In this document: piece after piece, positions 9,055 to 62,056 of the stretch | How the letters are laid out: the number at the start of each line of letters is the position of its first letter | Numbering within the stretch: the stretch's first letter is position 1 | Source: Stenotrophomonas maltophilia | GTDB taxonomy: Bacteria > Pseudomonadota > Gammaproteobacteria > Xanthomonadales > Xanthomonadaceae | Length of the DNA stretch: 64,000 nucleotides | Direction: 5' to 3' | Assembly: GCF_002205165.1 (NCBI RefSeq) | Contig: NZ_NIVS01000007.1 | Location: 62,001 to 126,000, forward strand | The notes under the pieces: generated by a model | Told to the model about the DNA's origin: nothing | Databases searched by the model: none | Seen by the model: only the letters and a program-made list of their open reading frames with translations | Position numbers and translations under genes: made by a program

Positions 9055-9384
9055 TCAGTGCAGCGGCTTCGATGCGGCTTTGGTCGCAGTCGCGCCCAGC
9101 AGTGGCCCACGCAGCAGCACCGCGGCCACCATCACCGCCAGGAAGGCACCGTAGGCGTAGAGCACGGCCAGCACCTGTCGCCAGATCGGCCCGGCATCGT
9201 TCTGGACCACGCCGATGTGATGGCCCCACAGCATCGCCAGGATGCTCAGCACGAAGGCCAGCACCAGCGCGGCGCCATCGAACAGGCGGCGCGCGGTGCC
9301 ACGCGGCTGGCGGGGGAACAACCAGTACAGCGTGCCCAACAGCACGAACCAGGGCAGGAACAACAACAACGACAACCAGGCCAT
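9055..9384 (-). CDS. Small inner-membrane protein of unknown function
   Basis: 109 residues from the ATG at 9384 (GGGAG about 8 bases upstream). Three hydrophobic segments are visible: LSLLLFLPWFVLLGTLYWLF, ALVLAFVLSILAMLWG and YGAFLAVMVAAVLL. A basic tail follows. The open frame extends upstream to 9585, but that part is Arg/Ser/Cys-rich and looks non-coding. It sits 40 bp from the MBL hydrolase and may be co-transcribed. Not recognised. Confidence 0.6.
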   Translation of the reverse strand: MAWLSLLLFLPWFVLLGTLYWLFPRQPRGTARRLFDGAALVLAFVLSILAMLWGHHIGVVQNDAGPIWRQVLAVLYAYGAFLAVMVAAVLLRGPLLGATATKAASKPLH

Positions 9385-9502
9385 CGCAGTCTCCCGTGCA
9401 GTCGCACGCCCCGCGGCGTGCAGGGGCATCATGCCATAGCGATGGCACCGACCAAGCGTCGATGCCTGCCGGATGGCGCGGTGGCTTGGTTGCCGGCCAG
9501 CG

Positions 9503-10792
9503 TTACTCGCGCAGTGCCTGCAGTGCGGCCAACACCACGTCCACCTCGGCCTCGAGCTTGAACAGTTCGCTCTGCAGCCCGTCACCGTGCTCGGTCTGCT
9601 TGAGCACGCCGATCAGCTGACCGGCGTCGCGCGGCGAATCGAAGCCCTCGCTCTGGATCAGCAGGGTGCCATCACCGGCCTGCAGCTTGAAGTAGAAGCG
9701 GCCGTCCTTTTCGCGGTACTGCTTGAACAGTGGCGGTGCCGCGCGCGCGGCCCCGCTTTCTTCACTGGGCACGTCACCGGCGGTGGACAGATCGCGCAGG
9801 CCAACCGCATGGCGCAGCTCCTTCAGCAGCGGCACCGCGAACTGCTCGCGCAGCTGCTGCCCACGACGGCGCAGCAGCGCTTCGATCTTTTCCGGCTCGG
9901 CCATCAGCGCGTCATAACGCTCGCGCAGCGGGGTGATCTCGCTGTCGATGCGCTCGAACAGCTGCTGCTTGGCATCGCCCCAGCTGATGCCCTCGGCGAA
10001 GGCCTGCGCGAATGCAGCGGTCTGCTCCGCGGTAGCGAAGGCCTGGTACATCTGGAACAGTGCCGAGCCTTCGGTGCTCTTGGGCTCACCGGGTGCGCGC
10101 GAATCGGTGAGGATGGAGAACACCAGCTTCTTCAGCTCCGCGCGGGGTGCGAACAGCGGAATGGTGTTGTGGTAACTCTTGCTCATCTTGCGGCCGTCCA
10201 GGCCCGCCAGCGTAGCGACCTGCTCATCGATCACCACCTCGGGCAGCGGGAAGAACTCCTGGCCGTAGACGTGGTTGAAGCGCTGCGCGAAATCGCGCGC
10301 CATCTCGATGTGCTGGATCTGGTCGCGGCCGACCGGCACGCGGTTGGCCTTGAAGATCAGGATGTCGGCCGCCATCAGCACCGGGTACATGAACAGCCCC
10401 GCGCTGATGCCGGCATCGTCATCCAGCTGTTCCTCGCGGTTCTTGTCCACGGCGGCCTTGTAGGCATGGGCGCGGTTGAGGATGCCCTTGCTGGCGATCA
10501 CGGTCAGGAACCACATCAACTCGGTGGTTTCGGGGATGTCGCTCTGCCGGTAGAACCACACCTTGTCCGGATCCAGCCCGCACGCCAGCCAACTTGCCGC
10601 GATCTCCAGCGTGGAGCGCTGGGTGCGCTCCGGCTCCTGCGCCTTGATCAGGCTGTGCAGGTCGGCCAGGAAGAAGAAGCTCTCGATATCCGAGGCCTGG
10701 CTGGCGGTGATCGCCGGACGGATGGCGCCGACGTAATTGCCCAGGTGGGGCGTGCCGGAGGGGGTGATGCCGGTAAGAACGCGGGTAGTCAT
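9503..10792 (-). CDS. trpS: Tryptophan--tRNA ligase
   Basis: 429 residues. The class I signatures are present: HLGN at residues 16-19 (variant HIGH) and KMSKS at 202-206. VLTGITPSGTPHLGNY and the DRVPVGRDQ-type motif (NRVPVGRDQIQH) are those of TrpRS. It charges tRNA-Trp in the cytosol. It is longer than the roughly 334-residue E. coli enzyme because of a C-terminal extension (about residues 340-429, IQSEGFDSPRDAGQLIGVLK), a form common in this bacterial group. Confidence 0.95.
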   Translation of the reverse strand: MTTRVLTGITPSGTPHLGNYVGAIRPAITASQASDIESFFFLADLHSLIKAQEPERTQRSTLEIAASWLACGLDPDKVWFYRQSDIPETTELMWFLTVIASKGILNRAHAYKAAVDKNREEQLDDDAGISAGLFMYPVLMAADILIFKANRVPVGRDQIQHIEMARDFAQRFNHVYGQEFFPLPEVVIDEQVATLAGLDGRKMSKSYHNTIPLFAPRAELKKLVFSILTDSRAPGEPKSTEGSALFQMYQAFATAEQTAAFAQAFAEGISWGDAKQQLFERIDSEITPLRERYDALMAEPEKIEALLRRRGQQLREQFAVPLLKELRHAVGLRDLSTAGDVPSEESGAARAAPPLFKQYREKDGRFYFKLQAGDGTLLIQSEGFDSPRDAGQLIGVLKQTEHGDGLQSELFKLEAEVDVVLAALQALRE

Positions 10793-10899
10793 GGGGAATC
10801 AATGCGGACAGATGAACCGCCCCAGTTTACCTGCCTGCGCTCGACCCCGTTGGCCGGGCCCGTGCGTTTGATCCTGCACCTGCCCTGTGGAGCCCTGCC

Positions 10900-20176: not shown

Positions 20177-21187
20177 TCACGCCGCAACGCGTTCGGCCTG
20201 GGCGCGGGTCACCGCCAGCGCCTGCTCGATCAGGCTCCAATCGGCCCCGACCCGGTGCGAGCCTTCGCTCAGGATCTGGCGGAAGGCGCGCCCACCCGGC
20301 TGACCGTGGAACAGGCCCAGCAGGTGGCGGGTGATGTGCTTGAGCGCCAGCCCACGGGCCAGCTGGGCCTCGATGTACGGCTGCATGGCGCGCAGCAGCG
20401 CCTCGCGCGATTGCAGCGGGGCACCGGTCTGGGCGGCCTCCAGCTGATGCAGCACGTAGGGGTCGTGGTAGGCCGCACGGCCCAGCATCACCCCGTCCAG
20501 CGCCGGCAGTTGGGCCTGCGCTGCCTCGACCGTGGCCAGGCCCCCGTTGAGGACGATCTGCAACTGCGGCCGGTCGGCCTTGAGGCGGTGCGCCCAGTCG
20601 TAACGCAACGGCGGCACTTCGCGGTTTTCCTTCGGCGACAGGCCCTTCAGCCACGCGTTGCGGGCATGCACCACGAACATCGCGCTGCCCGCGTTGGCAG
20701 ATTGATCGACGAAGTTGACGAAGGTTTCGTAGTCGTTGTCATCATCGACGCCCAAGCGGCACTTGACCGTGATCGGGATGTCCACCGCGGCAACCATCGC
20801 GCCCACGCACTCGGCGACCAGCGTCGGTTCGCGCATCAGGCAGGCGCCGAAGCGCCCGGCCTGCACGCGGTCGGACGGGCAGCCACAGTTGAGGTTGACC
20901 TCGTCGTAGCCCCATTCCTGCGCGATGCGCGCGGCCTGGGCCAGCAGGGCCGGATCGCTGCCACCGAGCTGCAGGGCGAGCGGATGCTCGCTGCCATCGA
21001 AGCCGAGCAGGCGCTCACGGTCGCCGTGGATCACCGCGTTGGCGTGCACCATCTCCGTGTACAGCCGTGCGCCGGGCGCCAGCAACCGGTGGAAGTACCG
21101 GCAATGGCGATCCGTCCAGTCCATCATGGGGGCCACGGATAGGCGTATTTCGTTCTTTTTCAATAACTTATGCATTTTATGGCGCAT
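20177..21187 (-). CDS. dusA: tRNA-dihydrouridine synthase A, with a prophage-supplied N-terminus
   Basis: 336 residues from the ATG at 21187; an ATG at 21175 is an equal alternative and neither has a good ribosome site. DusA reduces U20/U20a in tRNA using FMN and NADPH. The FMN-site start RLSVAPMMDWTDRH and the catalytic cysteine in VNLNCGCPSDRVQ are intact. The first residues (MHKLLKKNEI) are unlike the native N-terminus, MTQPATDAAARYAASLRLSVAPMMD, which survives at 62,056 on the far side of the prophage. The prophage thus rebuilt the gene and now supplies its promoter and start. Confidence 0.95.
   Translation of the reverse strand: MRHKMHKLLKKNEIRLSVAPMMDWTDRHCRYFHRLLAPGARLYTEMVHANAVIHGDRERLLGFDGSEHPLALQLGGSDPALLAQAARIAQEWGYDEVNLNCGCPSDRVQAGRFGACLMREPTLVAECVGAMVAAVDIPITVKCRLGVDDDNDYETFVNFVDQSANAGSAMFVVHARNAWLKGLSPKENREVPPLRYDWAHRLKADRPQLQIVLNGGLATVEAAQAQLPALDGVMLGRAAYHDPYVLHQLEAAQTGAPLQSREALLRAMQPYIEAQLARGLALKHITRHLLGLFHGQPGGRAFRQILSEGSHRVGADWSLIEQALAVTRAQAERVAA
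21120..21145. other. attL, prophage/dusA junction
   Basis: Matches attR (61983-62008) at 23 of 26 positions, with an identical 8-bp block (tccatcat) at its dusA-internal end. On the dusA coding strand this is ATGATGGA inside the codons for APMMD. Sequence to the left is host dusA. Sequence to the right is phage that mimics the replaced codons. Confidence 0.85.
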
Positions 21188-21286
21188 CCTTGGTGCGCTC
21201 GGACTCCCGCTAAGTCCCTGTTTTTCACCCCTGATCCCGGTGTAATGTACCGCTGCTGCACCACGCAGCGGGAGGTGCACCAAGAC

Positions 21287-22300
21287 ATGGCAGTAGTCGA
21301 GAAGCGAGGCAAAAAGTGGCGGGCAATGATCCGCCTCAAGGGGCATCCTACCGCCTCGAAGACCTTCAACGGGCGCAAGGCGGCTGAGGATTGGGCTCGC
21401 GTTACGGAAGATGCATTGCGCGCCGGCCTGGCCCCTCCGCAGGAAAGCATGACCCTGGAGGCCTTGATCGACCGCTACGTCAAAGAGATGGACCGCTTCA
21501 AGCCTATTTCAGCGACAAAGCGTGGAAACCTGCGCCGCTGGGTGGAGTCGTTGGGCGGCCGGGAAGTAACCACCCTCACCGGCCAGGACGTTCTGAACCA
21601 TATCAGCGCGCGAACAGCAGGCCCCGCCACGATGGCCATGGAGCTTGGGTTCCTCGCCGAGGTGCTGTCGGCGGCCCGCTCGCTCTGGAACATGACGATC
21701 CCCGATGTCGTGACCGCGGCTAGGCCTGTGCTGCGGCGCGCGGGAGCGATCGCCAAGCCGCTGGAGCGCGACCGCCGTCCCACAGCAAAGGAGCTGGACG
21801 ACCTTGCCAGCTATTACCGGTTCAACTTCGGGACCATCCCGATGCGGGACCTGATCCCATTCGCCGTGGAGTCGGCCATGCGGATGGGCGAGATCGTCAG
21901 GCTTCGCTGGGAGGACTATCGCCCGGGCGAGAAGCCAATGATCCTCATCCGGGACCGCAAGGACCCTAAGGACAAGAAGGGCAACAACCAGTGGGTGCCA
22001 CTGCTTGGCAGTACTGCCGCCCTCATTGAGGCACAGGCCCGGCACGGGGACCTGATCTTCCCCTACAAGGCAGACAGCATTGGCGCGTCGTTCCGTAGAG
22101 CCTGTGTGCGCCTACAGATCGAGGACCTTCACTTCCATGACCTGCGCCACGAAGGAACGTCCCGGCTGTTCGAGCAGGGATATCAAATCCCCGAGGTCGC
22201 GATCGTCACTGGCCATCGTGACTGGAAGTCACTCAAGCGGTACACACAGCTCGTGCCTGCCTCTCTACACCGTTCCGTCGTCAAATCAGATCGCGATTAG
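21287..22300 (+). CDS. int: Tyrosine-type phage integrase
   Basis: 337 residues from the ATG at 21287 (GGAGG upstream); a longer frame to 21170 would overlap dusA's start. An N-terminal arm-binding region (KRGKKWRAMIRLKG) and SAM-like core-binding domain precede the catalytic domain, with R199, H284-x-x-R287 (HDLRH), H310 (TGHRDWKSL) and the nucleophile Y319 (KRYTQL). It recombines attP with dusA. It diverges from the phage-derived dusA start, so the 100 bp between them holds both promoters. Confidence 0.95.
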   Translation: MAVVEKRGKKWRAMIRLKGHPTASKTFNGRKAAEDWARVTEDALRAGLAPPQESMTLEALIDRYVKEMDRFKPISATKRGNLRRWVESLGGREVTTLTGQDVLNHISARTAGPATMAMELGFLAEVLSAARSLWNMTIPDVVTAARPVLRRAGAIAKPLERDRRPTAKELDDLASYYRFNFGTIPMRDLIPFAVESAMRMGEIVRLRWEDYRPGEKPMILIRDRKDPKDKKGNNQWVPLLGSTAALIEAQARHGDLIFPYKADSIGASFRRACVRLQIEDLHFHDLRHEGTSRLFEQGYQIPEVAIVTGHRDWKSLKRYTQLVPASLHRSVVKSDRD

Positions 22301-22359
22301 CTCAGCCAAGGTCTTGGTCGAGGACTAAGGCTGACTCCCCCAATTGCCGGAACCTTTTC

Positions 22360-23622
22360 ATGTCCTTTAAATGGTCAAAAAACGTCGACCCGACGCCGTT
22401 GCTGAAGTCTTTCTACTCGCGAGTAGAAATAGTGGATCGCGCCGTACACATAGTAGACATAAGGGCTTATGCAGATGCGGCGCTGATTTCCTCAATGCTC
22501 GGCGGCAGCCACCCCGATGGCGAGCCTAGCACGAAGAATGAATTGGTCTGGGAAGCTTTAATCAGCTCTGCAGGTGACCACACGAAAGAACGCTTACTCG
22601 CCGAGCTGAACTTGGCCACCGTAGCGAGGAAGAAGCGCGGGACGAAAAACTTTGTACTGGTGACGACCCTGTCAGCAAAGGCGTCTACGTTGCCGGAGCA
22701 GATGACTATAGTGGAGCTTTCGGCCCAGTTCTCTAGCACACTGCCGGAGAACTACTGTCTCGAACGAGATCGGATTGCAGCAGAGCAGCTAAGATTTGGC
22801 TCGATCAAAGCCGACAATGAAGATTACTGCTATGTGCGCATAGAAGTAGACGCTAACGACGTAGCCGAAGCTTTTACAAAGGCTAGCTGGGAACTAGATA
22901 TCCTGAGGGGCATGATTTGCCTCTTATCTAATCCCGGCTTCGAGAAATCGCTCATAGGCACTGAACACAAGCCAATAAACGTCACCAGGAAGGGTAGCTT
23001 TCATACCATGCATGACCCGGATGGCAACGCTGCCTCCGAAATAATTTGGTATGAACCAAACTATGAACGCAGGACAGTCACGGCGTGGAAAGAGCCAGAT
23101 AAGCTGATGAGCGTGACGCAGAGTGCATTAGAAACACTCAGAGCGCGTCCTTACAAAGGCAGGCTTGCATTAGCCATCGTGCGATTCGCCAGGGCATTTG
23201 ATGAAGTCGATCCAGACACAGCGTTCGTAAAAGGCTGGTCGGCTTTTGAATCCATTCTTAGCGACAGCCAGGCCGACTACCCTCAGCTCATTAAGAGATG
23301 TGTATTCCTCTTCCAAGACAGGGAGTACCATGCCGCGGCAATTAAACAACTCGCGGAGCATCGCAACGCAAGTGTGCACCGAGTATCTGACGCAAGTCTT
23401 TCAAGAACGTTCTGTTATCTCCTCCAAAATTACTTTTCAAAAGCTCTATCCTTCCATCTCTTCCACTACCATCACTTTGATAATTTCCAAGAGGCGCTCT
23501 CTTTTTTGTCCGGGCCGTACACTAGGTCAGACTTGTACAAAAGTGCCGCCCGCGCAGAGCTTGCGAAAAAGTTCCTTAAGATTGATTTTAAGAACGATGC
23601 GGAAGAAGTGCACGACGAGTAG
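22360..23622 (+). CDS. HEPN-motif cargo protein, candidate anti-phage RNase
   Basis: 420 residues. The C-terminal third has the layout of an ApeA-type HEPN domain: a helix FVKGWSAFESILSD, then LIKRCVFLF, then LAEHRNASVHR, which is the R-x4-6-H ribonuclease motif (R335, N336, H340). The N-terminal 250 residues have no motif I recognise. The gene is visibly poorer in GC than its neighbours and lies between int and the tail fibre, a usual place for phage cargo. HEPN proteins of this kind often cleave RNA to abort infection by other phages. That is inference; no partner gene is adjacent. Confidence 0.7.
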   Translation: MSFKWSKNVDPTPLLKSFYSRVEIVDRAVHIVDIRAYADAALISSMLGGSHPDGEPSTKNELVWEALISSAGDHTKERLLAELNLATVARKKRGTKNFVLVTTLSAKASTLPEQMTIVELSAQFSSTLPENYCLERDRIAAEQLRFGSIKADNEDYCYVRIEVDANDVAEAFTKASWELDILRGMICLLSNPGFEKSLIGTEHKPINVTRKGSFHTMHDPDGNAASEIIWYEPNYERRTVTAWKEPDKLMSVTQSALETLRARPYKGRLALAIVRFARAFDEVDPDTAFVKGWSAFESILSDSQADYPQLIKRCVFLFQDREYHAAAIKQLAEHRNASVHRVSDASLSRTFCYLLQNYFSKALSFHLFHYHHFDNFQEALSFLSGPYTRSDLYKSAARAELAKKFLKIDFKNDAEEVHDE

Positions 23623-23654
23623 CTTGGTTGGTCAGATTGTCCATCCCGCCAGCC

Positions 23655-24341
23655 TCAATAGCCGGTCATATCTATGACCGCCATAGCGCAGTTCTGCGAC
23701 GCCACGGTGTAGCCGGTCGGCACCTGAGTTCCTGTGTATGGTCCGTACTGCCGCAGGGACTGGGAGGTCATCCCCAGCACGACCGTGTCGCCCAACACCG
23801 CGCCGCCTGCGACGCTCACGGTCTCTCGCTGCCAGTACTGGTCAGGGCCTCCGGCGCCGGCGCGGGTGAACGTCATCACTGAGGAGAACGCATTCACCAG
23901 TGGCATGACGGCCCACTTGCGCCCGCCGCCCGGCATGCCAACGTTGCCCTGCCAGTTAGCGTTCCCTGGCCCGGCACGAAGCTCCACCACACGGGCTACC
24001 TTTTTCCCAGCGTCGAACATCAGCTGCTGTGCGGCGTTGTATATCTTCAGGCCGACGTTACTGGGCGCCCCTTGAGGCTGAGCAAACACCCACCATTCGA
24101 CAGTTTCGCCCGGGGGGCCGAACAAGTAGATGCCGCCGGAATAACCCTCGATGTAGTTGAACCGCTGGGTGCCCACGAGCGACACCGAGCGCACAGCCAC
24201 CTTGCCATCGTAGTTGCCGATGAACGCGCTCCCTGCCCCGTTCAACTGACTCACGCCCTGCGCAAGGACGGTGAGCACAGGGAACTGGTCATCGATCAAG
24301 ATGGTTCCGAAGTCGTTGACGATTTTGATTCCTGCGGCCAT
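23655..24341 (-). CDS. Tail-tip / fibre-associated protein
   Basis: 228 residues from the ATG at 24341, which shares a base with the upstream stop (TAATG), implying coupled translation. It is rich in beta-type, aromatic and glycine segments (FNYIEGYSGGIYLFGPPGETVEWWVF). The start, MAAGIKIVNDFGTILIDDQF, echoes that of the preceding gene (MATGIKVYNADGSLGFDSGQF). It is last in the late operon. Probably a minor tail or receptor-contact protein. Confidence 0.7.
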   Translation of the reverse strand: MAAGIKIVNDFGTILIDDQFPVLTVLAQGVSQLNGAGSAFIGNYDGKVAVRSVSLVGTQRFNYIEGYSGGIYLFGPPGETVEWWVFAQPQGAPSNVGLKIYNAAQQLMFDAGKKVARVVELRAGPGNANWQGNVGMPGGGRKWAVMPLVNAFSSVMTFTRAGAGGPDQYWQRETVSVAGGAVLGDTVVLGMTSQSLRQYGPYTGTQVPTGYTVASQNCAMAVIDMTGY

Positions 24342-24622
24342 TAGCGTGCCCAAATTTCCACGATGCCGGGCAGGCGATAAATCGCCGGCACGTTTGCGAA
24401 GTTCCAATAGATCGCGCTGTTGGCAACATCGAGCGTAAAAACCGGCGGATACCAACTGAGCGCCACCGGCGTAAGTGCGGTGTCCTCGGGGCGGCGGCCG
24501 AAGTACGAGCCGCCGTCCCCAGTTCCATAGTTGACACGCGCGACAATGCGGAACAGCCGGAACTGGCCGCTGTCGAAACCCAGCGACCCGTCCGCGTTGT
24601 AAACCTTGATGCCGGTGGCCAT
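24341..24622 (-). CDS. Small tail-tip protein
   Basis: 93 residues, beginning at an ATG that overlaps the fibre stop (TGATG). The N-terminus MATGIKVYNADGSLGFDSGQFRLF is related to that of the next gene, suggesting duplication of a short attachment module. The rest (GDGGSYFGRRPEDTALTPVALSW) is not recognised. Its position right after the fibre gene suggests a minor tail protein or an accessory to the fibre tip. Confidence 0.65.
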   Translation of the reverse strand: MATGIKVYNADGSLGFDSGQFRLFRIVARVNYGTGDGGSYFGRRPEDTALTPVALSWYPPVFTLDVANSAIYWNFANVPAIYRLPGIVEIWAR

Positions 24623-27600
24623 CAGATGTTGACTCCCATCGCCACGCGCAGCACGCCGCTGCCGTCATAGACGCGCCAGTTGCCATTGCTGTACTCCGTG
24701 CGCTCACCGCCCCCGGAAGGGCTGACGCGGAACCGGTCCGCCACGATGTCGAACACGGCCTCCTGTCCGGTCACGCCCAGGCGAACACCGCCCACCTTGC
24801 CATCTGCACGCACGTCCACCGCCCACTGTGCCTCCGCCGACTGTCCCGACACCGCGAACGGTGGCGGCTGGGTGGCACCTTCTGCCACCTCGCACAGCAT
24901 CGGTTGCCACAGCCACATGTAGGGCCATGCCTCGCCCAGGCCTCGCAACCGGATGGCGACGCGCATGAACGCAGTCCCCGGGGGCGCCTTCTGGATTCCG
25001 AAGTAGCGTGGGAACTCATTGAGGGGACCGGCGGTGCGGTTGGTGTTTACCACCTCCTGGCACGACACGCTGCCGATGATGGCGCCCGCCCCGTTCATGA
25101 ATTCCGCATAGAACAGCACACCGCAGCGGTGGGTATTGATGCCTGCCGCAATGCAGTAGGTCTTACCCGCGATGGCCGGAACGTTGTTGACCATGATGCC
25201 CCAGTTGTTGTCCGTCAGCGCCGCAGAACGCACTGTCGAAAGGGCCGTGCTGAATCCGTGCGGGATGTAGTTCGTGTCATTGGAAGAATTTCCCCACGGT
25301 GCCCACGTTCCCACCTGTCCCCAGCCTGTCCCGCTCCAGTTCGGGAACGTGCTGTTAGGGATGAGGTTGCCGCCTTCGCCCTGGTTGCGGACTTGGACCT
25401 GCATCGACTGCACAACCGCTGCATCGGCCTTGCCACCCAGCGAAGCCTGCACGCCCTGAATCTGCGATGCCTGCGCGCTGATCTGGCTACCCTGCTGCGT
25501 CACGGTGGACTGCATCTGCTGCCACGCGGTCGAATTGAAGTCACCTAGGCGAGTGTTCAGCGCGGTAATGCTGTAGGCGTTTGCAGTGATCTGATTACCC
25601 TGCTGGGTCACCTTGGTGTCCAGGCCGCTGATCGCGGTCGCCTGGGCGTCGATCGCCACCTCCTCGGTGATGTCGAACATCTCAATTCGATCAAAGATCA
25701 GACGGCCGGTCGTGGGCGTCCACAGCTGCAACATGAATTCGTTTCGGGTATCGCCGATCGGGACGGTCACGGTGTACCGCACCCACGCCGTCGTCACCTG
25801 GACCTTCTGGTCGTTGTTGCCCTCGCCGGAGGCATCACGGACGCGGGTGCGTACCGTCACCTCCATGGCACCGTCCAGGCCCCGCGCTACGAACGTGACG
25901 CGCAGGCGGCGCTGGGGCTTGCCCAGCTTTACCGGTGCCCATCGCCCGTTGTTGCTGAAGATAAACGGGCTGGCGGTGGCGGACGCCGGACGGGTAATCA
26001 TCAGGGCATTGCCCTGCTGACCACCGCCGACGACGTGAGTCACTGTGCTGCCGCCGCCCAAGCCGCCGGGGAGCCACAGCTGCATCCCATAGTCGAACGT
26101 CGGGTTCTCCACCAAACTCTCGCCACGATTCACCGTGGACAGGATCGTGGAATTCAGCTCGGTCACCTGCGTAGCCTGGGCATCAATCTTGCCCTCTGCC
26201 TGAGTCACGCGGGTCGTCAGGCCCTGCAACGCCGTAGCGGCACCGTCTGCCGCCTGCTGCGCATTGAACGCTTCGGTCACGTCAACGATGCGGATGTCAT
26301 CCAGATCCACCTTCACGCCTGCCGTGCGGCCGTTGTTCGGGATGGAGACCCACAGCTGCCATTTCTCGGCGTCGGCCCGGGTGGTCAGATAACCCGAATT
26401 CTTGACCCACTGGCCTTTGTTCTGCGCCAGCGATGCGAAGGAGCGCCCGAGGCCCGGCCAGTTGCGACTCGCCGTGGAACTGTTCGCCGCCTGCGACATC
26501 CACCCCACCGTGATCTGCCCGGTGGCAGGGGTGGCGCTGTCGTCACGCATACGGGCCCAATATTCAACGTAGAACCGACGTTCCGCACCCACCGCCGTGA
26601 ACTCGCCAAAGTAGGCATCGGCATTGCTGCCGTTGGCGGCAGCGGTCTCGATGTTCATGCCCAGGCGCCCGGTGCGCGCCGCGCTCGCCTTATAGGTGAA
26701 CACGTTACCGCCGGCGGCGGTGGCGTACACCTGCCCGTCGATACCGAACTCGAACGTGCCATACGGGAACAGGCTGTCGTCCCCGCTGAGGACTGTGCCC
26801 ATCTGGCTCTGCAGCCGGGTCACGTTTGTGGCTGCGCTGTCCACCCTGCCTTCCACTGCCGTGGTTCGCGTGGAGAGCTGCTGCAACGCGGTTGTATTCG
26901 CGCTGGTGTTGCTGGCTACGTCGGTGACTTCGCTGCGCAGAGCGATGATCTGTGCCGACTGCGAGTCCACAGTCGATCCAAGTTGGCTCACCGTCGATGT
27001 CAGGCCCGATACCGCGGAGGCAGTGGCGTTGATCGTGCCTTGTAGCTCGTTGGTGCTCGCGGACCACTGTGTAGCGACTTCGCCCTGTTGGAACTGGGCG
27101 TTATCCAGGTCCATCTGCACCGCGCCCAAGCCGCCAGCCACAGCCAAGAGGCGATAGATGACTCGTGCGTACGTGCCGGTGGGAGGGGCTTCAGTCGGTG
27201 AAGCTACAAAGCGTTGGAACGTGTCAGTCAGAACGAAGTCCTGCTGAAGAGTTGTTACCGCCGAGCCGGACTGCGAATTGACGTACTGCGTGATGAAACG
27301 CAGCTTGGCGCCCGGCGTACCCCGTGCCCACACCGATTGCACGTACTTTTCGCCGGCCGTCACCTTGGGGCGGTTCGCGTTCACCGGCTCAACGCCCAGG
27401 TATGCGCTGACGGTGGAAAGCGAACCGGAAAGGCTGAGGAAGCGCGACGATCCTGCAAGTAGGCTTGCACCGTACCCAACAGTGAAGGACTGCGATGTAT
27501 TGGTCTGCCAGTTCGGCAACAGGGTGGTGGTGCTGGTGCTGCTCTCGAAGCCGCTGTCGGTCAGCAGGTTGTCCCCGCCAATGTTTTGTAGCGACGCGTT

Positions 27601-29058
27601 GATGCTGGTAATCGACTGCGCCAGCGCGTTGGTGGTGGTTGCGGTGGATTCTTGGAGAGCCGTGACCGACGCCGTGGTGGCTAGCGAGCCCGACCCGGCC
27701 GGCATGCGCGCTTCCATCGTGCTGATGCGCTGCACCTGGGCCGAGTCCGCTGCCACCCGGGCGCGCAGTTCCTCGTAGGCGATCCCGGAGGTCAGCTGGG
27801 CCGGATCCGTGCCCGTGTAGTTCCCTCGCATCTGCACCGCAAGTGCGGTTCGCTGACTGGCCTCGGCGGCATCCGCAGTGATGCGCGCCTGGGTCTCCTC
27901 CTGCACCAGCGCCACCGACGCCCCCGGCTGGGGGCGGCCCACGGCGATGTAGTCGATCAGGTAGTAGTTGGCCACCGTCTGCGCAGCGCCCAGCTGCAGG
28001 CGGATCGCGTCCACCTTGGCCGGCCACCAGGCAACGTCCTGAACGTCTACCGTGGCCATGCCGTTCACGTCCCACGCCGGCTCCGGGATGGATGCACGCT
28101 TCTGCGTGTTCCATGCCTGGTCCGTCGCGGTGATCCACTGCAGGGAGCCGCCCCACGTTGGGGCTCCCACGCGCCTTACGCGCAGCTTGACGAAACGGTA
28201 AGCGCTGCCGTCGATGGCCAGCGCCACCGGTGACTGTACCCACGGCGCGGTGGCGTGGTTTGCAGGGCGCAACCAGCCATCCACCAACGTGGGGGCGCCA
28301 TTGCCGGTCCACCCCTCGGTGGTCTGGTTGAAAGGCCAGAGCTTGATGCTATCGAACTGCGTACCGCTGCCGGCCGCAACTTCCGACACAGCGCGCGCCA
28401 GCGACTCGTCGGCGCTCTGCCGCAACTGCTCCTCTCGGGTGATCGCGGCCTCGCGTGCCATCTTCTCGTTGAGGATGGCGTCGATGCGTGCTTGGGCTTC
28501 TGCGCCGATCGCCTGCATGGCCTCGCCCACCCCCTGCTGCCGTAGCAGCGCCTCAGCCACCAAGTCCTGCGCGGCCTGCGCCAGCCCCGCGGCGCGCGCG
28601 GCCGCCTCATCGGCGATGGCCTGAATTCGGGCACTGACCTCGGCTGCCAGCTTCGCCTGCTGCTCCGCCAGATCGGTCGACGTGGTCGGCGGGGTGACGC
28701 CCACCACGGTTCCCGTGCCGGTCTTTCCGCGCACGGTCGGGGTGATCTGGAACCACCAAGTGCTGCCACTGCCGTCGTTGTAGACGTAGCGGGTTTCGGT
28801 GGTGCGGTGGATCTCCGTCCACGGCCCGTCCTTGGTCTCGCTGCGTGAGATGACGTAGATCACACCTTCCAGGTCGACGGCATCCCACTCAAGGACAACG
28901 CCGTCGGCGACCGGCGTGGGGGTGACGCCGTTGGCCGGCGGCACATCCGGCGCCTTGAAGGGCACCGGGAACCACGTGGAGAAGCGCGGCGCCACCGGAG
29001 ATGCCGACGGCAGCGCGCCCACGCCGATCTCCACCAGCGTGAGTTTCCTTGCTTGCAT
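24622..29058 (-). CDS. Large central tail fibre / host-specificity protein
   Basis: 1,478 residues. A fibronectin-III-like module near the N-terminus (about 45-120, VLEWDAVDLEGVIYVISRSETKDGPW) precedes an Ala-rich coiled coil (DLAEQQAKLAAEVSARIQAIADEAAARA). Several jelly-roll-like segments with LLTDSGFESSTSTTTLLPNWQTN-type starts look like carbohydrate-binding folds, separated by TALQQL-type coiled-coil linkers. The end, WAVDVRADGKVGGVRLG through FRVSPSG, is typical of the DUF1983 tip of lambda J-like proteins. It recognises the host receptor. Confidence 0.85.
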   Translation of the reverse strand: MQARKLTLVEIGVGALPSASPVAPRFSTWFPVPFKAPDVPPANGVTPTPVADGVVLEWDAVDLEGVIYVISRSETKDGPWTEIHRTTETRYVYNDGSGSTWWFQITPTVRGKTGTGTVVGVTPPTTSTDLAEQQAKLAAEVSARIQAIADEAAARAAGLAQAAQDLVAEALLRQQGVGEAMQAIGAEAQARIDAILNEKMAREAAITREEQLRQSADESLARAVSEVAAGSGTQFDSIKLWPFNQTTEGWTGNGAPTLVDGWLRPANHATAPWVQSPVALAIDGSAYRFVKLRVRRVGAPTWGGSLQWITATDQAWNTQKRASIPEPAWDVNGMATVDVQDVAWWPAKVDAIRLQLGAAQTVANYYLIDYIAVGRPQPGASVALVQEETQARITADAAEASQRTALAVQMRGNYTGTDPAQLTSGIAYEELRARVAADSAQVQRISTMEARMPAGSGSLATTASVTALQESTATTTNALAQSITSINASLQNIGGDNLLTDSGFESSTSTTTLLPNWQTNTSQSFTVGYGASLLAGSSRFLSLSGSLSTVSAYLGVEPVNANRPKVTAGEKYVQSVWARGTPGAKLRFITQYVNSQSGSAVTTLQQDFVLTDTFQRFVASPTEAPPTGTYARVIYRLLAVAGGLGAVQMDLDNAQFQQGEVATQWSASTNELQGTINATASAVSGLTSTVSQLGSTVDSQSAQIIALRSEVTDVASNTSANTTALQQLSTRTTAVEGRVDSAATNVTRLQSQMGTVLSGDDSLFPYGTFEFGIDGQVYATAAGGNVFTYKASAARTGRLGMNIETAAANGSNADAYFGEFTAVGAERRFYVEYWARMRDDSATPATGQITVGWMSQAANSSTASRNWPGLGRSFASLAQNKGQWVKNSGYLTTRADAEKWQLWVSIPNNGRTAGVKVDLDDIRIVDVTEAFNAQQAADGAATALQGLTTRVTQAEGKIDAQATQVTELNSTILSTVNRGESLVENPTFDYGMQLWLPGGLGGGSTVTHVVGGGQQGNALMITRPASATASPFIFSNNGRWAPVKLGKPQRRLRVTFVARGLDGAMEVTVRTRVRDASGEGNNDQKVQVTTAWVRYTVTVPIGDTRNEFMLQLWTPTTGRLIFDRIEMFDITEEVAIDAQATAISGLDTKVTQQGNQITANAYSITALNTRLGDFNSTAWQQMQSTVTQQGSQISAQASQIQGVQASLGGKADAAVVQSMQVQVRNQGEGGNLIPNSTFPNWSGTGWGQVGTWAPWGNSSNDTNYIPHGFSTALSTVRSAALTDNNWGIMVNNVPAIAGKTYCIAAGINTHRCGVLFYAEFMNGAGAIIGSVSCQEVVNTNRTAGPLNEFPRYFGIQKAPPGTAFMRVAIRLRGLGEAWPYMWLWQPMLCEVAEGATQPPPFAVSGQSAEAQWAVDVRADGKVGGVRLGVTGQEAVFDIVADRFRVSPSGGGERTEYSNGNWRVYDGSGVLRVAMGVNI

Positions 29059-29064
29059 TGCTGA

Positions 29065-32000
29065 TTACCTCGTGTAGTTGAGCGAACTGCGCAGCTCGGC
29101 GCTGCTGGCGTTGCGTACGCCTTGGGTGGTGGTAGACACGAGCTGGCGGAGCAGCTGGTTCTGCTCGGCGAGCAGAGCGTTGCTCTGCTGCACGGCGGCA
29201 GTGGTTTGCGTTTGGGCGTCGTTGTTCACCACCAGGTCGAACACAGCCCGGCTGAAGTTGTCCGGCAGCGCCTCGATGGCGTCGGCCAGCGCCCCCATGC
29301 TGGTTCCGTCCTGCAGGTCGAGGTTCCCGACCTTCATCCCGTCGATCAGGCCGGTCACCTGGTCGTAAAGGCCGTTGTAGTCCTGGCCGCTGGCGTAAAG
29401 GTTCCGACCAAAGCCCAGAGCCGCCTGTGCGGCCGCCTGCGCGGCGCTGGTGTCGCCACCGGCCACCGCACGCTCCAGCTCCTGCATCGTCTTCTGCAGC
29501 TTCTCCTGATCGGTCAGCGTCGAAAGGTCGCTGGTATCCAACCCGTACCGCATCGCCTTCTTGTCGGCGTCGATCTGGGCCTGCAGCTTGCCCATGTTCG
29601 TTGCCCGCAACGCCTCGATCTTGGCCAGGTCCTCGGCGCGGGCACCGGACAGGCCGAGCGCCTTGGCGTAGTCGTTGGCCGCCTTCACCTGCTGGCGATA
29701 CGTGCGCTCGATCGACAACGCCTGCGACTGGTACTGCGTCAGGTTCGCCGTCATCAGCTGCGTACTCACGTCGGCCATGAGGCTGGCGTAGTTCCCCAGG
29801 AGGCCCGTCACCTTCTCCACCTGCGTGGCCAAGTTCGTGCCGGCGACGCTGGCCAAGTCCTGGAAGTAGTCGACGGCTTTGTTGACCTTCTCCACCTCCA
29901 TGCCGTTCAGCGCGCGCCCCAGCTCGTCGGCGTTGCCAACAGCCAGTGCGATAGAAGCACTGAGGGCCGAGAACACGTCCGACGCTTCGAAGTAGCCATC
30001 CAGCTGCCCGCCGAACCCCGCCGCCTTCACTGCCTCGGTGAAGAGGCGATCCGTCATGTCGGCCAGGTAGGCTTCCAACTGCGACTTCGCTTCGGCCGAA
30101 TCGGCCGACAGCTGCAGCTTGCCCAGCGACACCTTCACGCCGGCCAGCTGCCCCGACAGGTCGATGCCGAGCTGTTTGGCCAGATCCGTGGTGGCGCCAC
30201 GCACCTGCCGCGCCGCCATGTCGAAGGTGCGATCGATGCCTGGGTCAAGGTCGCCGTACTGGGTCCACTTCTTGTCGCTGCGGAACATGCCCCCCTTGGC
30301 CTTGATGTCCGCGTAGGACTGGCCGTCGAAGCCACCGAAGCCGTAGCTGCCGGTGAGGCCCTGCCCGGTCACCTTGGGGGCGCTGCGCCCAAACAGCTTG
30401 GCGTGGATGCTGGACCCCGACAGGATCGATGCGGTCTTGTCGTTGAAGCCCAGGCCACGGAATCCCTTGTCTGCCAGGCCCACCGCACCGGCAGTGGCGA
30501 TCTTGCCGGCCCAGCTCTCCCCGTTGGCAATATCCCAGCCTTGGTCGAACAGCTCGGCGTTCTTCATCATGCCGGCAACGATCCAGCCGATGATGGGCAC
30601 CGCCGCCGCGGCAGAGCTTGCCGCACCCGCTCCGGCGCCGGCCCCGGCACTGCCCCCACCGATCAGCCCCGAGAAACTGGAGCCGGTCATCCCGGCCATG
30701 CTGGTCACGTCCCCGAAGCCGGTCAGGGATCCTGCCGCCGATCCTGCCGAGCTGCCGAATCCGAACAGGCCCTGCCCCTTGGACAGCAGGCCGGCTACCG
30801 TGCCCATGTTCTGACCGCCCGCAGCCGAGCCGTTGCCGCCGAACAGGCCCATCATGCTCTGCAGGTTCAGCCCGCCACCCTGCCCACTCATCCCGTTCAG
30901 AATCTGCGTCTGGATGGGGATAACCAGCTTCTGCTGCAGGAACTCCCGGGCCAGGTCGCGCAGTCCGCGCTTGGCCGCGTCCTTGAGGTCATCCCACAGG
31001 TTGTCGAAGTCGCGCATTCCCCCTGCCACGAAGTCAGCCATAGCATCGGCAGCATCGCCAACGCCATAGATCAGTACGTTGGCCCATGCCTCCACATTGG
31101 CAGCAGCCTCTTCCACCCGCAGCGATAGATCGGCCGATGCCCGGGCCGCGGCGAGCATGGATTGCTCGTATGCCTCGTAGGACGCCACACCCTTCCTACG
31201 GGCAAGCTCCTCTTTGCTCCCTGCCGCTTCCACGGCCTTCTGCAGCTCCTGCCGCATGTCACGCTCGTTCATCATCTGGCGGCGCGACAGCTCGCGCGCG
31301 CGCCCGACCTTGCCGAGCATGGCCACCTCGGCGTCCATGGTGGCCAGCATCGATTCCGGGCTGGACAGCGCCTTGTTGATTTCCGCGGTGGACTGCTCAA
31401 GTGCCTTCTGCGACTCCAGCACCAAGGCGTTGTACGCCGCCCGCTCGATGCGTCCCTCCTTGAGCGATTCCTTGAGCTTGTCCTCGAGCTGCTTCTGGCG
31501 CTCCGTGGCCTCGGCCAGCGGCCCCGCCATGGTCGCGGCGGCCATCGCCGCTTGCTCGTTGTAACGCTTGATTGCCTCCGCGTCGGCTTTGCGGTCCTTC
31601 GCGCCGGCACGCTCTGCCGCGGACGCCGCCTTGCGCGATTCGGTGAAGGTCTTCTGTGCGGCAGCAAGATCGGTCTGGAGCCGGATGTACTGGGCGCCCT
31701 GCTCGATGTACTGCTTGACCTTCGGATCGTCGCGCTTGGAGAAATCGACTCCGCCCGCCTGGGCCTCCTTGAACCAATCGGCCACATCCAGCTTTGCCAC
31801 GTCGGCAGCGCTCTTCCCGACACGAGCAAGCTGGCCAGGAAGCGACTGCATCGCCGATGCGATGCGCTTACCGGCGGCGCCGGCCGAATCCCCCAAGACG
31901 TTGAACGATCCCGACAGGGCGTCGGTTGCGCTCTTCGCTTGGTTGCTGCTGCCAGTAAAGGCCTCGAGAATCGACCTCTTACGGTCGACCTCCCGGCCAG

Positions 32001-33648
32001 CGGTAGCCGCTGCGGCCGTTTCTTCGGTCAAGCTCTTCGTGACGGCGGCGGCGGCCGGGGAGCCTTCAATCATGGCCCGCCAAGCAGCCTCAAGACCGGT
32101 GGCAAATTCGTCCGCCGTGACTTTTCCCGCCTTGAATGCGGCATCCAGCCGTTCGGTTTCCTTGATGAAGGCCGACGCCTGGCCGACGTTGGAGAAGTTG
32201 GTAGCTGCTGCCACCATCTCGCCAATCGAGCCGGTGATCGTCTTGTAGTTGGCGTCGATCTCCTTCTGCAGGCGCAGGATTTCGCCCGCCTGCTGCTGAC
32301 GGTTCAATTCGCGGAACTTTTCGATCGCGGTGTCGGCAGCACCGCCGAAATCGATCAGCGCGGCTGACGCGGTGTTGGTGTTGTCTCGGAAGATCAACCA
32401 ACCAGCTGCTGCCGTGGCCAGCATCGTGACGATGCCAGCAGGCCCGCCCAGCATGGCAAGCGTCGAGGAGCCTGCCCGCGCGAGCCAACCCGCGTTTGCG
32501 GCGGTGGCCTGGGCCTGCGCCTGAGCCAGCAGCAGGGTTGCTTGCCGGTGTTCAAGAGTCGCGGCCGCAGCCTTGGAGCTTACCGAAACGCTGCCGCCGA
32601 TCGCAGCTGTACGCCGGACCTCTGCCTGGGCATCAAGCATGGCAGCACGGGTGCGCAGCTCAAGCTGCTGAGCCGCAGCCAAGCTCTGCGCTGCGGCCGC
32701 CCGATCGGCAACCATCCCAGCGTTAGCTGCTGTCACCCGAGCGAGAAGAGCCTTCACCAAGGGGCCAGAGGCCAGTGCCGCGGAGGCGATCGCCACCGCC
32801 TGCAGGTTGTTTCCGAGGACGGCAATACCGGCAGCAAGAGCCTGTGACGCGCCAGTGGCCTCATCGGCGCGGCCAACCATCTCGGAGAGGTTGGTGTTAA
32901 GCAAAGTCAGTGACTGACCTACGGTCGCGTCCATCTTTCCGAACGCTTCGTCGACGGCGCCTGCCTGACGCTGAAGTGCATTGATGACCTGGTCTGCAGT
33001 TAGCTTTCCGGCCGCCCCCAGTTCGCGGAGTTTGCCCATTGGGACGTTGAGCCCCTTGGCGATTTCCTGAGCAAGGGCTGGGGCACCCGCCAGCACCGAG
33101 TTCAGCTCCTCACCACGCAAAGCGCCTGATGCGAACGCCTGGCCAAGCTGAACGAGTGCGCCCTCTGCCGCAGCGGCGCTGCTGCCGCTGATCACCAACG
33201 TCTTGCTGATCGTCTCTACGACCCGCGCCAGGCCGGCGCCAGACAGCCCCAGAGCATCCTGATTCATCGCAATACGCTGGTAGAGCTCGGCAGTCGCTCC
33301 CAACGGCTGACGAGTCGCCTTCGCGACCTGGATAACATCCTGTTGAGCCGCAACAAACGACGCCTGATCCTTGGTTACAAGGCGAAGCCGGTTGTTCAGG
33401 TTCGTCCATTCGTCCGCTTTGCCGATTACTGCCTTGACGGCGGCCAGCGCCGAAGTCATTCCCACGGCTTCGAACGCAACGCGACGAAAGCCCGCAGAGA
33501 CCTCATCCGCGCCGCGGCGGGTGGCGTCCGACATGGACGCCTGGATGGACTCCATGTCGCGCTTAACCACACGCGCGGCCTTCCCACTGTCGCGCTCGAA
33601 GGAGCCCGACTTCAGCAACAGGTCTACGGTAAGGGTGTAAAGGCTCAT
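29065..33648 (-). CDS. Tail tape measure protein
   Basis: 1,527 residues from the ATG at 33648 (MSLYTLTVDLLLKSGSFERD). An upstream in-frame start at 33690 adds 14 residues that fit less well. The N-terminal tape-measure domain contains WTNLNNRLRLVTKDQ and GAPALAQEIAKGLN. Long Ala-rich helices follow, with hydrophobic stretches (LAMLGGPAGIVTMLATAAAGWLIF) and a Gly/Ala-rich segment near 1000 (SGLIGGGSAGAGAG). It sets the tail length, implying a tail of roughly 200 nm by the usual proportion. It directs DNA passage through the host envelope. Confidence 0.92.
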   Translation of the reverse strand: MSLYTLTVDLLLKSGSFERDSGKAARVVKRDMESIQASMSDATRRGADEVSAGFRRVAFEAVGMTSALAAVKAVIGKADEWTNLNNRLRLVTKDQASFVAAQQDVIQVAKATRQPLGATAELYQRIAMNQDALGLSGAGLARVVETISKTLVISGSSAAAAEGALVQLGQAFASGALRGEELNSVLAGAPALAQEIAKGLNVPMGKLRELGAAGKLTADQVINALQRQAGAVDEAFGKMDATVGQSLTLLNTNLSEMVGRADEATGASQALAAGIAVLGNNLQAVAIASAALASGPLVKALLARVTAANAGMVADRAAAAQSLAAAQQLELRTRAAMLDAQAEVRRTAAIGGSVSVSSKAAAATLEHRQATLLLAQAQAQATAANAGWLARAGSSTLAMLGGPAGIVTMLATAAAGWLIFRDNTNTASAALIDFGGAADTAIEKFRELNRQQQAGEILRLQKEIDANYKTITGSIGEMVAAATNFSNVGQASAFIKETERLDAAFKAGKVTADEFATGLEAAWRAMIEGSPAAAAVTKSLTEETAAAATAGREVDRKRSILEAFTGSSNQAKSATDALSGSFNVLGDSAGAAGKRIASAMQSLPGQLARVGKSAADVAKLDVADWFKEAQAGGVDFSKRDDPKVKQYIEQGAQYIRLQTDLAAAQKTFTESRKAASAAERAGAKDRKADAEAIKRYNEQAAMAAATMAGPLAEATERQKQLEDKLKESLKEGRIERAAYNALVLESQKALEQSTAEINKALSSPESMLATMDAEVAMLGKVGRARELSRRQMMNERDMRQELQKAVEAAGSKEELARRKGVASYEAYEQSMLAAARASADLSLRVEEAAANVEAWANVLIYGVGDAADAMADFVAGGMRDFDNLWDDLKDAAKRGLRDLAREFLQQKLVIPIQTQILNGMSGQGGGLNLQSMMGLFGGNGSAAGGQNMGTVAGLLSKGQGLFGFGSSAGSAAGSLTGFGDVTSMAGMTGSSFSGLIGGGSAGAGAGAGAASSAAAAVPIIGWIVAGMMKNAELFDQGWDIANGESWAGKIATAGAVGLADKGFRGLGFNDKTASILSGSSIHAKLFGRSAPKVTGQGLTGSYGFGGFDGQSYADIKAKGGMFRSDKKWTQYGDLDPGIDRTFDMAARQVRGATTDLAKQLGIDLSGQLAGVKVSLGKLQLSADSAEAKSQLEAYLADMTDRLFTEAVKAAGFGGQLDGYFEASDVFSALSASIALAVGNADELGRALNGMEVEKVNKAVDYFQDLASVAGTNLATQVEKVTGLLGNYASLMADVSTQLMTANLTQYQSQALSIERTYRQQVKAANDYAKALGLSGARAEDLAKIEALRATNMGKLQAQIDADKKAMRYGLDTSDLSTLTDQEKLQKTMQELERAVAGGDTSAAQAAAQAALGFGRNLYASGQDYNGLYDQVTGLIDGMKVGNLDLQDGTSMGALADAIEALPDNFSRAVFDLVVNNDAQTQTTAAVQQSNALLAEQNQLLRQLVSTTTQGVRNASSAELRSSLNYTR

Positions 33649-33690
33649 CCCATCGTCCACAAAAAAGGCCCGCACTTGGCGAGCCGACAT

Positions 33691-49534: not shown

Positions 49535-50500
49535 CTAGTCGCCTTTTTCGTCAGCGAGCTTCCCTGCCATCTGCTTTGCGAAGGTCATCACAACCTCTGT
49601 GTGATCCCAGTTCATTGCCTCAGGCAGCTCAATCTTGCATGACCTGGAAACAAGCTTTTCGAGCTCTTCACCCGGATCCACCGCATCCTCGGGAACGTCA
49701 AGCACCGCTTGTTTATGCTTGCCGGTTCCCTCCTCCTTATAGTGAATTCGCACTTGCTCATAGTTTTCGCCGAACGCGATCTGGCGAGCCCGGGCGATGA
49801 CAGCGGAAACTCGCCCCTCTTCAGGATCTTGCCGGACATCGAGGCATAGGATCTGCCTACGACGTACCAACTCCTCGGGCTCATCCAAGCCTTGATCCTG
49901 CAACTCTTCCTTCACAAGATCAAAAGACAGCAATTCGCCCTTCTCGATCTCCTCGATCAAGCTTCTGCTCAGAAGGCCGTCCAGCGAAACCACCGGGAAC
50001 CAGTTATGGGTGTCATTCCCTTCTTTCAATTCTCGCTCACCAGCCTTGTGCAAGGGATGGTTCAGTCGACTCAGAACGACTGACGGCCCCAGCCCCGGCG
50101 ACTCTTCAAGAGCGCAAGGATACACTTGGGTAGTGCCTTGGAGAGTGTAGGAGAGGTCAATCACCAGATGTGCCTCGGTGCGATATCCCTCCCCGTCATC
50201 CTTGGCAAACGTACGCGCCGCTCCCGTCTGCATGTTCTCGTAGCTGGCATCAATATAACCAGCATCAGCCATTACAAAGAGAACAGCCGCATAAGGCCGG
50301 CCATTCTCCTCGAAGAATTCACAGTGCTTGATGCGCACGACCCTCTTCGCGCCATCCCTAACGGCCCGCTGATAAAAAGCGTTGCCCGCCGCCGTCGTCA
50401 GTATTGCGGTCAAATCCCATGGCTCCCGTGTCTTGGCACCGGTTCCGTGGGAGATCTTAATTTCAAGGAAACGCATTACACGACTGCTACTCGACTTCAT
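49535..50500 (-). CDS. Cytosolic partner protein of a two-gene accessory module
   Basis: 321 residues from the ATG at 50500, preceded by GGGGGAG; the open frame runs further to 50590 without support. No signal or membrane segment. Distinct stretches are RVVRIKHCEFFEENGRPYAAVLFVMADAGYIDASYENMQTG, LEESPGLGPSVVLSRLNHPLH and VSAVIARARQIAFGENYEQVRIHYKEE. Family not recognised. GC content is below that of the surrounding late genes. It has its own promoter and operator-like palindrome and is terminated at 48942, so it is expressed apart from the lysis genes, probably in the lysogen. Confidence 0.75.
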   Translation of the reverse strand: MKSSSSRVMRFLEIKISHGTGAKTREPWDLTAILTTAAGNAFYQRAVRDGAKRVVRIKHCEFFEENGRPYAAVLFVMADAGYIDASYENMQTGAARTFAKDDGEGYRTEAHLVIDLSYTLQGTTQVYPCALEESPGLGPSVVLSRLNHPLHKAGERELKEGNDTHNWFPVVSLDGLLSRSLIEEIEKGELLSFDLVKEELQDQGLDEPEELVRRRQILCLDVRQDPEEGRVSAVIARARQIAFGENYEQVRIHYKEEGTGKHKQAVLDVPEDAVDPGEELEKLVSRSCKIELPEAMNWDHTEVVMTFAKQMAGKLADEKGD

Positions 50501-50652
50501 TAGCTCCCCCTGTGATCTTCCGTGAACGGACAAGGATTGCATAAAACTCAGCCGGACATCATGCGCATCTTTGGCCAGGCCGCCAGGCATTCACGCAAAC
50601 GGCCCGCCGAGTGGCGAGCCGCGCAGATGAGACTCTCCCCACCTTACCGAGA

Positions 50653-59861: not shown

Positions 59862-60443
59862 TCAACGCAATGCCGGAAACCAAAGTCGCAAAAGGTGGAC
59901 GATTCTTTCACGCAGGTTCCTTGGAACAGAAGGAAGTACGCTGATAGGCTGTCGTGTACCGAGCCTGTCGCTCAGCAACTTGCGCCACTTCAAGTACTGC
60001 GAGCCGCTGACACCTGGTGCCAACTTGATCTCAGCGTGAGCCACGCTGTCAGAATTCGGCGTCTCGTACACACGAAAGACCTGCTCACCTGCAGCCCCAC
60101 GGACCGCATGGATTTCTGCGACGTGGCCCAACAGGACACCCTGCAATGCAAATCCCGCGCGTGGCTTCCCTCGTTGCCTCCGGTGTCGCTCTCGCCGCTC
60201 GGGCTCGTCCATCGCTAATTGGCGCGAATACAAAGAGAGGCGCTGGACAGAGAATCCGCGCTTTGTCAGGTCCTGCTGACTAATCTGGGACTCACGGAGA
60301 GTTAGCGTTGTGGGATCAATATCATCCGGATACTTTCCGTCCACAGTAATAGGTATGCCGGCCTTATAGCAAAGCCGGCATACCATTTCTTCTTCAGATA
60401 CAAGCGGCACGACGACCGCAGATCCCCCTGCAATCTCCCCCAT
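59862..60443 (-). CDS. Accessory cassette gene 3, unknown
   Basis: 193 residues from the ATG at 60443; the frame extends to 60545 but would overlap the gene before it. It has a C-x-x-C pair (MVCRLCYKAG) and conserved-looking stretches DLTKRGFSVQRLSLYSRQLA and PRAGFALQGVLLGHVAEI, then VYETPNSDSVAHAEIKL. I know this as a recurring pattern of uncharacterised bacterial proteins without a settled function. It is last of three co-directional genes and converges on the PrtN-like gene. Confidence 0.65.
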   Translation of the reverse strand: MGEIAGGSAVVVPLVSEEEMVCRLCYKAGIPITVDGKYPDDIDPTTLTLRESQISQQDLTKRGFSVQRLSLYSRQLAMDEPERRERHRRQRGKPRAGFALQGVLLGHVAEIHAVRGAAGEQVFRVYETPNSDSVAHAEIKLAPGVSGSQYLKWRKLLSDRLGTRQPISVLPSVPRNLRERIVHLLRLWFPALR

Positions 60444-60456
60444 CGAACAACCCCGG

Positions 60457-60966
60457 TTACTTGAGACGTTCGACGAAACTATGAAGTCCGGAATTGGGAA
60501 AGCGCTGCGGGCTAACCTCGTCCCCGAACTCTTCGACCCCATCAAGTCGACTGTAGTAGCTCAGAACGCCAACTTCGTCGATGTGAACGTGAAAAAGATC
60601 AACATCATTTCCATAGAGGAAGTTGATTTCTCCATCGTGGGAAAGTTCCAGGGAGAAGTCGAGACAGCTATCCCACAAGCCGTTTATGAATGCTTCGGCG
60701 GAACAGTAAGCCAGCTCCGTTGGCTCGGCAACGCCATCCATATCGGAGTGGGCGAGCAGCGCCGACTCGCTCCTGAGGTGCGCCAGGTGCGACGACCTCT
60801 TGGCATAAGCCAAGCTCGGCTTGGGCGCGGCGAGCTGCGGCCGAGCACCAACACGCTTAATGCGCCACCCTTTGGAAAAGTCGGATTCCCACACGCGCTT
60901 CGAGCGCGAAGTTACGCCCCAGCGCTCACGATCTAGATCGAAAGTATCAATGCATGGCATGTTCAT
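60457..60966 (-). CDS. Accessory cassette gene 2, unknown
   Basis: 169 residues. The second half, AEAFINGLWDSCLDFSLELSHDGEINFLYGNDVDLFHVHIDEVGVLSYYSR, looks like a small alpha/beta domain; the N-terminal half is basic. Its start lies within the 3' end of the first cassette gene (20-bp overlap), and 13 bp separate it from the third. No function assigned. Confidence 0.65.
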   Translation of the reverse strand: MNMPCIDTFDLDRERWGVTSRSKRVWESDFSKGWRIKRVGARPQLAAPKPSLAYAKRSSHLAHLRSESALLAHSDMDGVAEPTELAYCSAEAFINGLWDSCLDFSLELSHDGEINFLYGNDVDLFHVHIDEVGVLSYYSRLDGVEEFGDEVSPQRFPNSGLHSFVERLK

Positions 60967-61966: not shown

Positions 61967-62056
61967 TTAGGAATTCGCCCCATCCATCATCGGGGCGACG
62001 GACAGGCGCAGGGAGGCGGCGTAACGCGCGGCGGCGTCGGTGGCAGGCTGGGTCAT
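61967..62056 (-). pseudogene. Displaced 5' end of dusA
   Basis: Thirty codons from the ATG at 62056: MTQPATDAAARYAASLRLSVAPMMD, the native DusA N-terminus, then four foreign codons (GANS) from phage sequence, then stop. RLSVAPMMD is identical to residues in the rebuilt dusA at 21,187. It still lies downstream of the native dusA promoter, so it may be transcribed, and that transcription would run into the prophage. Confidence 0.92.
61983..62008. other. attR, prophage/host junction
   Basis: Matches attL at 23 of 26 positions with the identical 8-bp block tccatcat at 61983-61990. Host sequence lies to the right. Confidence 0.85.

Follow-up and report, generated by a model that had tools for sequence, protein, structure and literature searches.

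A gene at the integrase end of a dusA prophage

We analyzed a 64,000-nucleotide stretch of Stenotrophomonas maltophilia DNA (contig NZ_NIVS01000007.1, positions 62,001 to 126,000; here called the window), in which a gene for a protein with a probable C-terminal HEPN domain lies next to the tyrosine integrase gene (int) of a prophage. The gene, of which the source genome has a single copy, begins 60 bp downstream of the int stop codon, and both genes are on the forward strand (Table 1). Its guanine-plus-cytosine (GC) content (0.500) is below that of int (0.620), of the two large open reading frames (ORFs) beyond it (0.651 and 0.649), and of the window (0.643), which bears out the statement in a first-pass annotation that the gene is AT-richer than its neighbors.

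The integrase ORF abuts the 5′ end of dusA, and imperfect 25-bp repeats occur in the 5′ part of dusA and at the right end of the prophage. Against 20 randomly chosen stretches of the window, the left repeat matched at best 19/25, versus 22/25 for the real pair. According to the relevant part of an earlier description, dusA-specific islands carry 21-bp semiconserved repeats at their flanks (PMC4482086). Because int abuts dusA and the repeats are of this imperfect kind, we infer a prophage of about 41 kb, with the gene at its integrase end. The first-pass annotation had put it between int and a fiber gene, as cargo. The former holds, since the ORF at 24622-29058, on the opposite strand, matches phage tail fiber or tail proteins, although an ORF at 23655-24707, for which no match was found among phage records, lies nearer; cargo status is likewise supported. 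The next ORF, at 29065-33690, matches tail tip or tape-measure proteins. A promoter scan of positions 21900 to 24000 found none and was uninformative, as shuffled sequences gave a mean of 1.1. No repeats flank the gene in the window or in a related locus, L008, while elsewhere it is enclosed by 213-nt inverted arms (84% identity; 9210-9422 and 11755-11967 in L006) or 162-nt direct copies (88%; 9682-9843 and 11774-11935 in L002). Repeat-flanked insertion is thus not a feature of the family.

Table 1. Features of the window (aa, amino acids; pLDDT, predicted local distance difference test)
Feature	Position	Strand	Remarks
HEPN cargo gene	22360..23622	+	open ORF, 420 aa; 28 relatives; GC 0.500
N-terminal domain, residues 1-243, alpha+beta	22360..23088	+	model pLDDT 88.3; no family match
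Alpha/beta core, residues 94-227, weak ferredoxin-like resemblance	22639..23040	+	
Conserved block PINxxRxGxxHTxHxxxG..W(Y/F)(E/D)P, residues 205-233	22972..23058	+	G212, H218, G222, W230 in 43/43; 9 diverged loci
Predicted HEPN helical bundle, residues 246-372	23095..23475	+	
R335-N-A-S-V-H340, presumed active site	23362..23379	+	R, N, H in 43/43
Tyrosine integrase of prophage	21170..22300	+	PF00589 E 6e-18; phrog_1 E 5.8e-47
dusA, host gene, integration site	20177..21346	-	tRNA-dihydrouridine synthase 3b0v E 7.7e-93
attL-like repeat, 5′ part of dusA	21120..21144	.	22/25 identical to 61983-62007
attR-like repeat, prophage right end	61983..62007	.	22/25 identical to 21120-21144

A probable HEPN domain fused to an unplaced N-terminal domain

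The HEPN assignment was first proposed from the motif R335-N-x3-H340 within LAEHRNASVHR, together with the helical block FVKGWSAFESILSD. The motif is present as numbered (codons 23362-23364 for R335 and 23377-23379 for H340), and the block spans residues 289 to 302, largely coinciding with model helix 285-300. Profile searches, in which a third round added no sequences, yielded a 29-row alignment (A2) of the window protein and 28 relatives. A further 14 proteins, encoded at loci in genomes, a plasmid, and viral contigs, extended it to a 43-row set; one of the 14, from L003, shares 95% identity with a sequence already in A2. The L007 protein, cut by a contig end, was omitted. R335, N336, H340, D281, W293, E297, and H324 are invariant in A2 (29/29). 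In the larger set the first six remain so (43/43), and H324 is found in 39 of 43. By our own arithmetic, chance alone would produce a lone R-N-x3-H in 1 to 2% of similar-sized proteins, but R335, N336, and H340 do not vary in either set, and the motif is therefore more than a chance occurrence.

In the section consulted, HEPN domains are defined by Rx4-6H with a polar residue directly after the arginine, usually N, D, or H, and by a conserved acidic residue upstream, typically in Ex3[KR] (PMC3710099). R335 and H340, with N336 in between, agree with the first two features in all 43 proteins, and E297 and D281 provide acidic residues in all 43 as well, although the window protein does not have an exact Ex3[KR] (S301 stands four residues after E297). 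The structure model has a pLDDT of 87.6, and in a fold comparison a HEPN protein ranks first of 997 chains. Beforehand, the assignment had been made to depend on R335 and H340 lying in a HEPN helix and being conserved among homologues; both residues fall in model helix 321-340, and both are invariant. DUF4145 (PF13643), itself listed as a HEPN family (PMC3710099, in part), matches 17 of the 29 family members over the helices and the motif (best E value, 2.8e-4). Invariant motif, profile similarity of the relatives, and fold comparison together support a HEPN domain, which, judging from these residues, would be catalytic.

The remainder of the protein, described in the first-pass annotation as unplaceable and fused to the HEPN domain, has kept that description: the N-terminal domain found no family match in four libraries. 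A profile of the N-terminal half, run against 369 genomes of the class and 398 of the phylum (overlapping draws), matched the source genome only, and no pairing with another effector was found there. HEPN RNases are common defense effectors, and we know of no identified switch for many of them. As this domain is unmatched yet has invariant residues of its own, effector and switch should be separable by mutation at two sites in one small gene.

Distribution of the family and the cargo of related prophages

The family is rare, occurring in 2 of 150 genomes of relatives and in 1 of 398 genomes of the phylum, with the source genome counted. Besides six genome contigs, the loci of relatives include seven viral contigs and one plasmid; the gene is mobile. 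It is AT-richer than the rest of the locus in all nine loci first compared and in the six viral loci added later. All seven viral records contain an integrase match (one below cut-off), and in five of them it lies within 8 kb of the gene, the distance being 18 bp in L067 and 0.5 kb in L066. Some neighbors are common to L063 and L066, and others to L064 and L065. Inspection by eye revealed no recurrent partner gene across all the loci listed, and we therefore take the gene to be a one-gene system. In open-licence literature searched on general terms we found no description of the family.

Other elements with this type of integrase were also examined. Of 91 genomes of the genus, 11 gave a match to the integrase, including the source genome, and nine of the ten others were taken (G016 was left out); a dusA-like frame is present in eight of the nine elements, the exception being L059. 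We then scanned ten hand-picked ORFs located up to about 4 kb downstream of int in six elements with dusA integrases (L051 to L056). Six of the ten had PADLOC matches at an E value of ≤0.001, at least one per element, and five were below 1e-15: ShosA (1.6e-96), PDC-S06 (2.1e-53), HEC-09 (1.7e-25), DpdB (2.9e-22), and DUF4238-Pers (1.8e-17). The sixth match was to PDC-S50 (5.5e-4). Several of these models represent candidate systems. Among ten control ORFs from host and phage core regions, none fell below 1e-15 and two matched weakly (4e-5 and 1.6e-4). Three ORFs of L058 and L059 had no PADLOC match, and L057 was outside the scan.

In L051 (genome G077), whose integrase is the closest to that of the window (70%), ShosA stands beside ShosT (6.6e-40) at 9211-10816 (+), adjoining the dusA integrase. 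L052, at least, is a P2-type phage with a terminase 97% identical to that of Smp131, so the likeness to the window is confined to the dusA integrase and the adjoining place and does not extend to the whole phage. Position supports the defense role first proposed for the window gene, and further defense genes may be sought next to int in the dusA prophages of this genus.

Four int-proximal ORFs had no match in Pfam (E ≤ 0.01) or PADLOC (E ≤ 0.001) and may be undescribed defense genes: L053 9915-11129 (+), L052 11114-11644 (-), L054 2167-2823 (+), and L051 7537-8400 (+). In the window prophage itself, a 351-aa ORF in an AT-rich stretch (49535-50590, -) matches PADLOC PDC-M53A (E value, 3.5e-12) and is a second candidate defense gene. 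The right end of the prophage is also AT-rich (59862-61942; GC content of 0.55 to 0.56 at 60 to 62 kb), and its three ORFs had no PADLOC match.

Interpretation and comparison with known systems

We propose, with a probability of roughly 0.6, that the gene encodes a single-gene, prophage-borne anti-phage HEPN protein whose RNase activity is gated by the N-terminal domain. The mechanism is modeled on Tha-1, a prophage-encoded HEPN RNase that no longer protects as the H270A variant (PMC11087260, as far as consulted). By this analogy, the HEPN domain (residues ~246 to 372) would act as a metal-independent RNase with an active site made up of R335, N336, and H340, probably with assistance from E297, and presumably located in a dimer cleft. 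The N-terminal domain (residues 1 to 243) would hold the RNase off until an infection signal is met; cell and phage RNA would then be cut, and the infected cell would stop growing or die, sparing the lysogen population from rival phages.

A stand-alone RNase toxin of the stress or addiction type, stabilizing mobile elements and using its N-terminal domain as a built-in brake or as a reader of a host stress metabolite, is the least improbable alternative, though we doubt it. Toxin-antitoxin genes do lie near the gene in L003, L004, and the plasmid L011, and the N-terminal half is nearly as conserved as the HEPN domain (mean identity, 0.43 versus 0.50), which would suit a fixed ligand; yet no antitoxin-like partner recurs by eye among the loci listed, and comparable int-proximal places hold defense cargo. 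Less probable still is a role in the prophage life cycle, in which a product co-expressed with int would tune lysogeny or induction through RNA cleavage. The gene is co-oriented with int and follows it closely here and in L067, but it is also present on a plasmid, in L008 next to structural genes, and in contigs that have no integrase nearby.

The ApeA-like layout read into the protein at first was not borne out, and we regard membership of the ApeA family as very unlikely. The two ApeA loci that we found (~460 aa, motif RNYLTH) have the same order of an N-terminal domain and a C-terminal HEPN domain with RNx3H. However, neither PF18739 (HEPN_Apea) nor PF18862 (ApeA_NTD1) was among the Pfam matches of the protein or the 29-row family, and the modeled N-terminal domain is alpha+beta, whereas ApeA-NTD1 reportedly consists mostly of beta strands. 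An HEPN_Apea search of the source genome found none, a result uninformative alone because no control genome matched there; the ApeA models do pick up the family elsewhere, with HEPN_Apea above its cut-off in 3 of 274 genomes of the class. Least credible is a HEPN domain that binds RNA without cutting it: RNase activity here is a prediction, but R, N, and H, found in 43/43, form a pattern that the cited part of PMC3710099 links to active RNases.

The first interpretation is therefore supported, as the likeliest, as regards the HEPN domain, cargo status, the unplaced N-terminal fusion, and defense by position, but not as regards ApeA. Going beyond the anti-phage reading, we tentatively suggest that these anti-phage RNases form a family of their own, not described before, in which one protein suffices and which is int-proximal in dusA prophages, where defense systems are swapped. 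A new alpha+beta, perhaps ferredoxin-like, domain would control HEPN, and block 205-233 would bind a fixed trigger (e.g., an infection-made nucleotide or RNA end) and not a variable phage protein. Effectors of this type, and their carriage by phages, are already known; the N-terminal domain is undescribed, and the significance of the family would rise if a defined infection signal turned out to be bound by the conserved block.

For DUF4145, the window protein itself gave no match and the best listed member scored 21.2 bits against a curated cut-off of 23.1; the passages available on DUF4145 describe no comparable N-terminal domain. DUF3644 (PF12358), also a HEPN family in the portion of PMC3710099 consulted, matched the window protein at an E value of 0.044 and only 2 of the 29 members, and was not used as an assignment. 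Comparison of A2 by hhalign with ApeA (2 rows), DUF4145 (6), and DUF3644 (1 each) gave probabilities of ≤2%, and the DUF4145 and ApeA-HEPN alignments placed motif on motif, these profiles being too thin to count either way. BxaP, as presented in the excerpts of PMC10799925, is a DUF4145/HEPN protein with demonstrated phage defense, but its DUF4145 domain is N-terminal, its C terminus is HEAT-like, and it is tied to BREX. In P2-like phages and P4 satellites, defense hotspots hold variable defense cargo near int, with HEPN among the domains; these are other phages, and the passages of PMC9122126 at hand mention neither dusA prophages nor the window gene.

Tha-1 of Staphylococcus phage 80alpha offers a functional precedent. 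In one pairwise comparison the two proteins matched over just 21 residues at the motif (E value, 0.14), and we therefore treat Tha as a likeness in working and not as demonstrated kinship. Tha-1 has 301 aa versus 420 here, and its N-terminal half, according to the part of PMC11087260 consulted, was not confidently modeled by its authors, whereas that of the window protein is. The same source describes a phage-tail trigger and an antisense inhibitor, Ith, for Tha. In the window gene, a 90-aa antisense ORF (22467-22739, -; gene positions 108 to 380) is reminiscent of Ith but may be due to chance. It ends at the same gene position as a 109-aa antisense ORF in L008 (positions 108 to 437), and shorter ones lie near this end in L002 and L003; antisense ORFs of 50 to 90 aa also occur elsewhere in the eight genes compared. 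What the two systems share is their arrangement: the 301-aa gene of the 80alpha record, which has R265-H270, adjoins int, and both are prophage genes beside int that encode a C-terminal HEPN domain with RNx3H (RNSIMH in Tha-1) behind an N-terminal half without a known domain (PMC11087260, in part).
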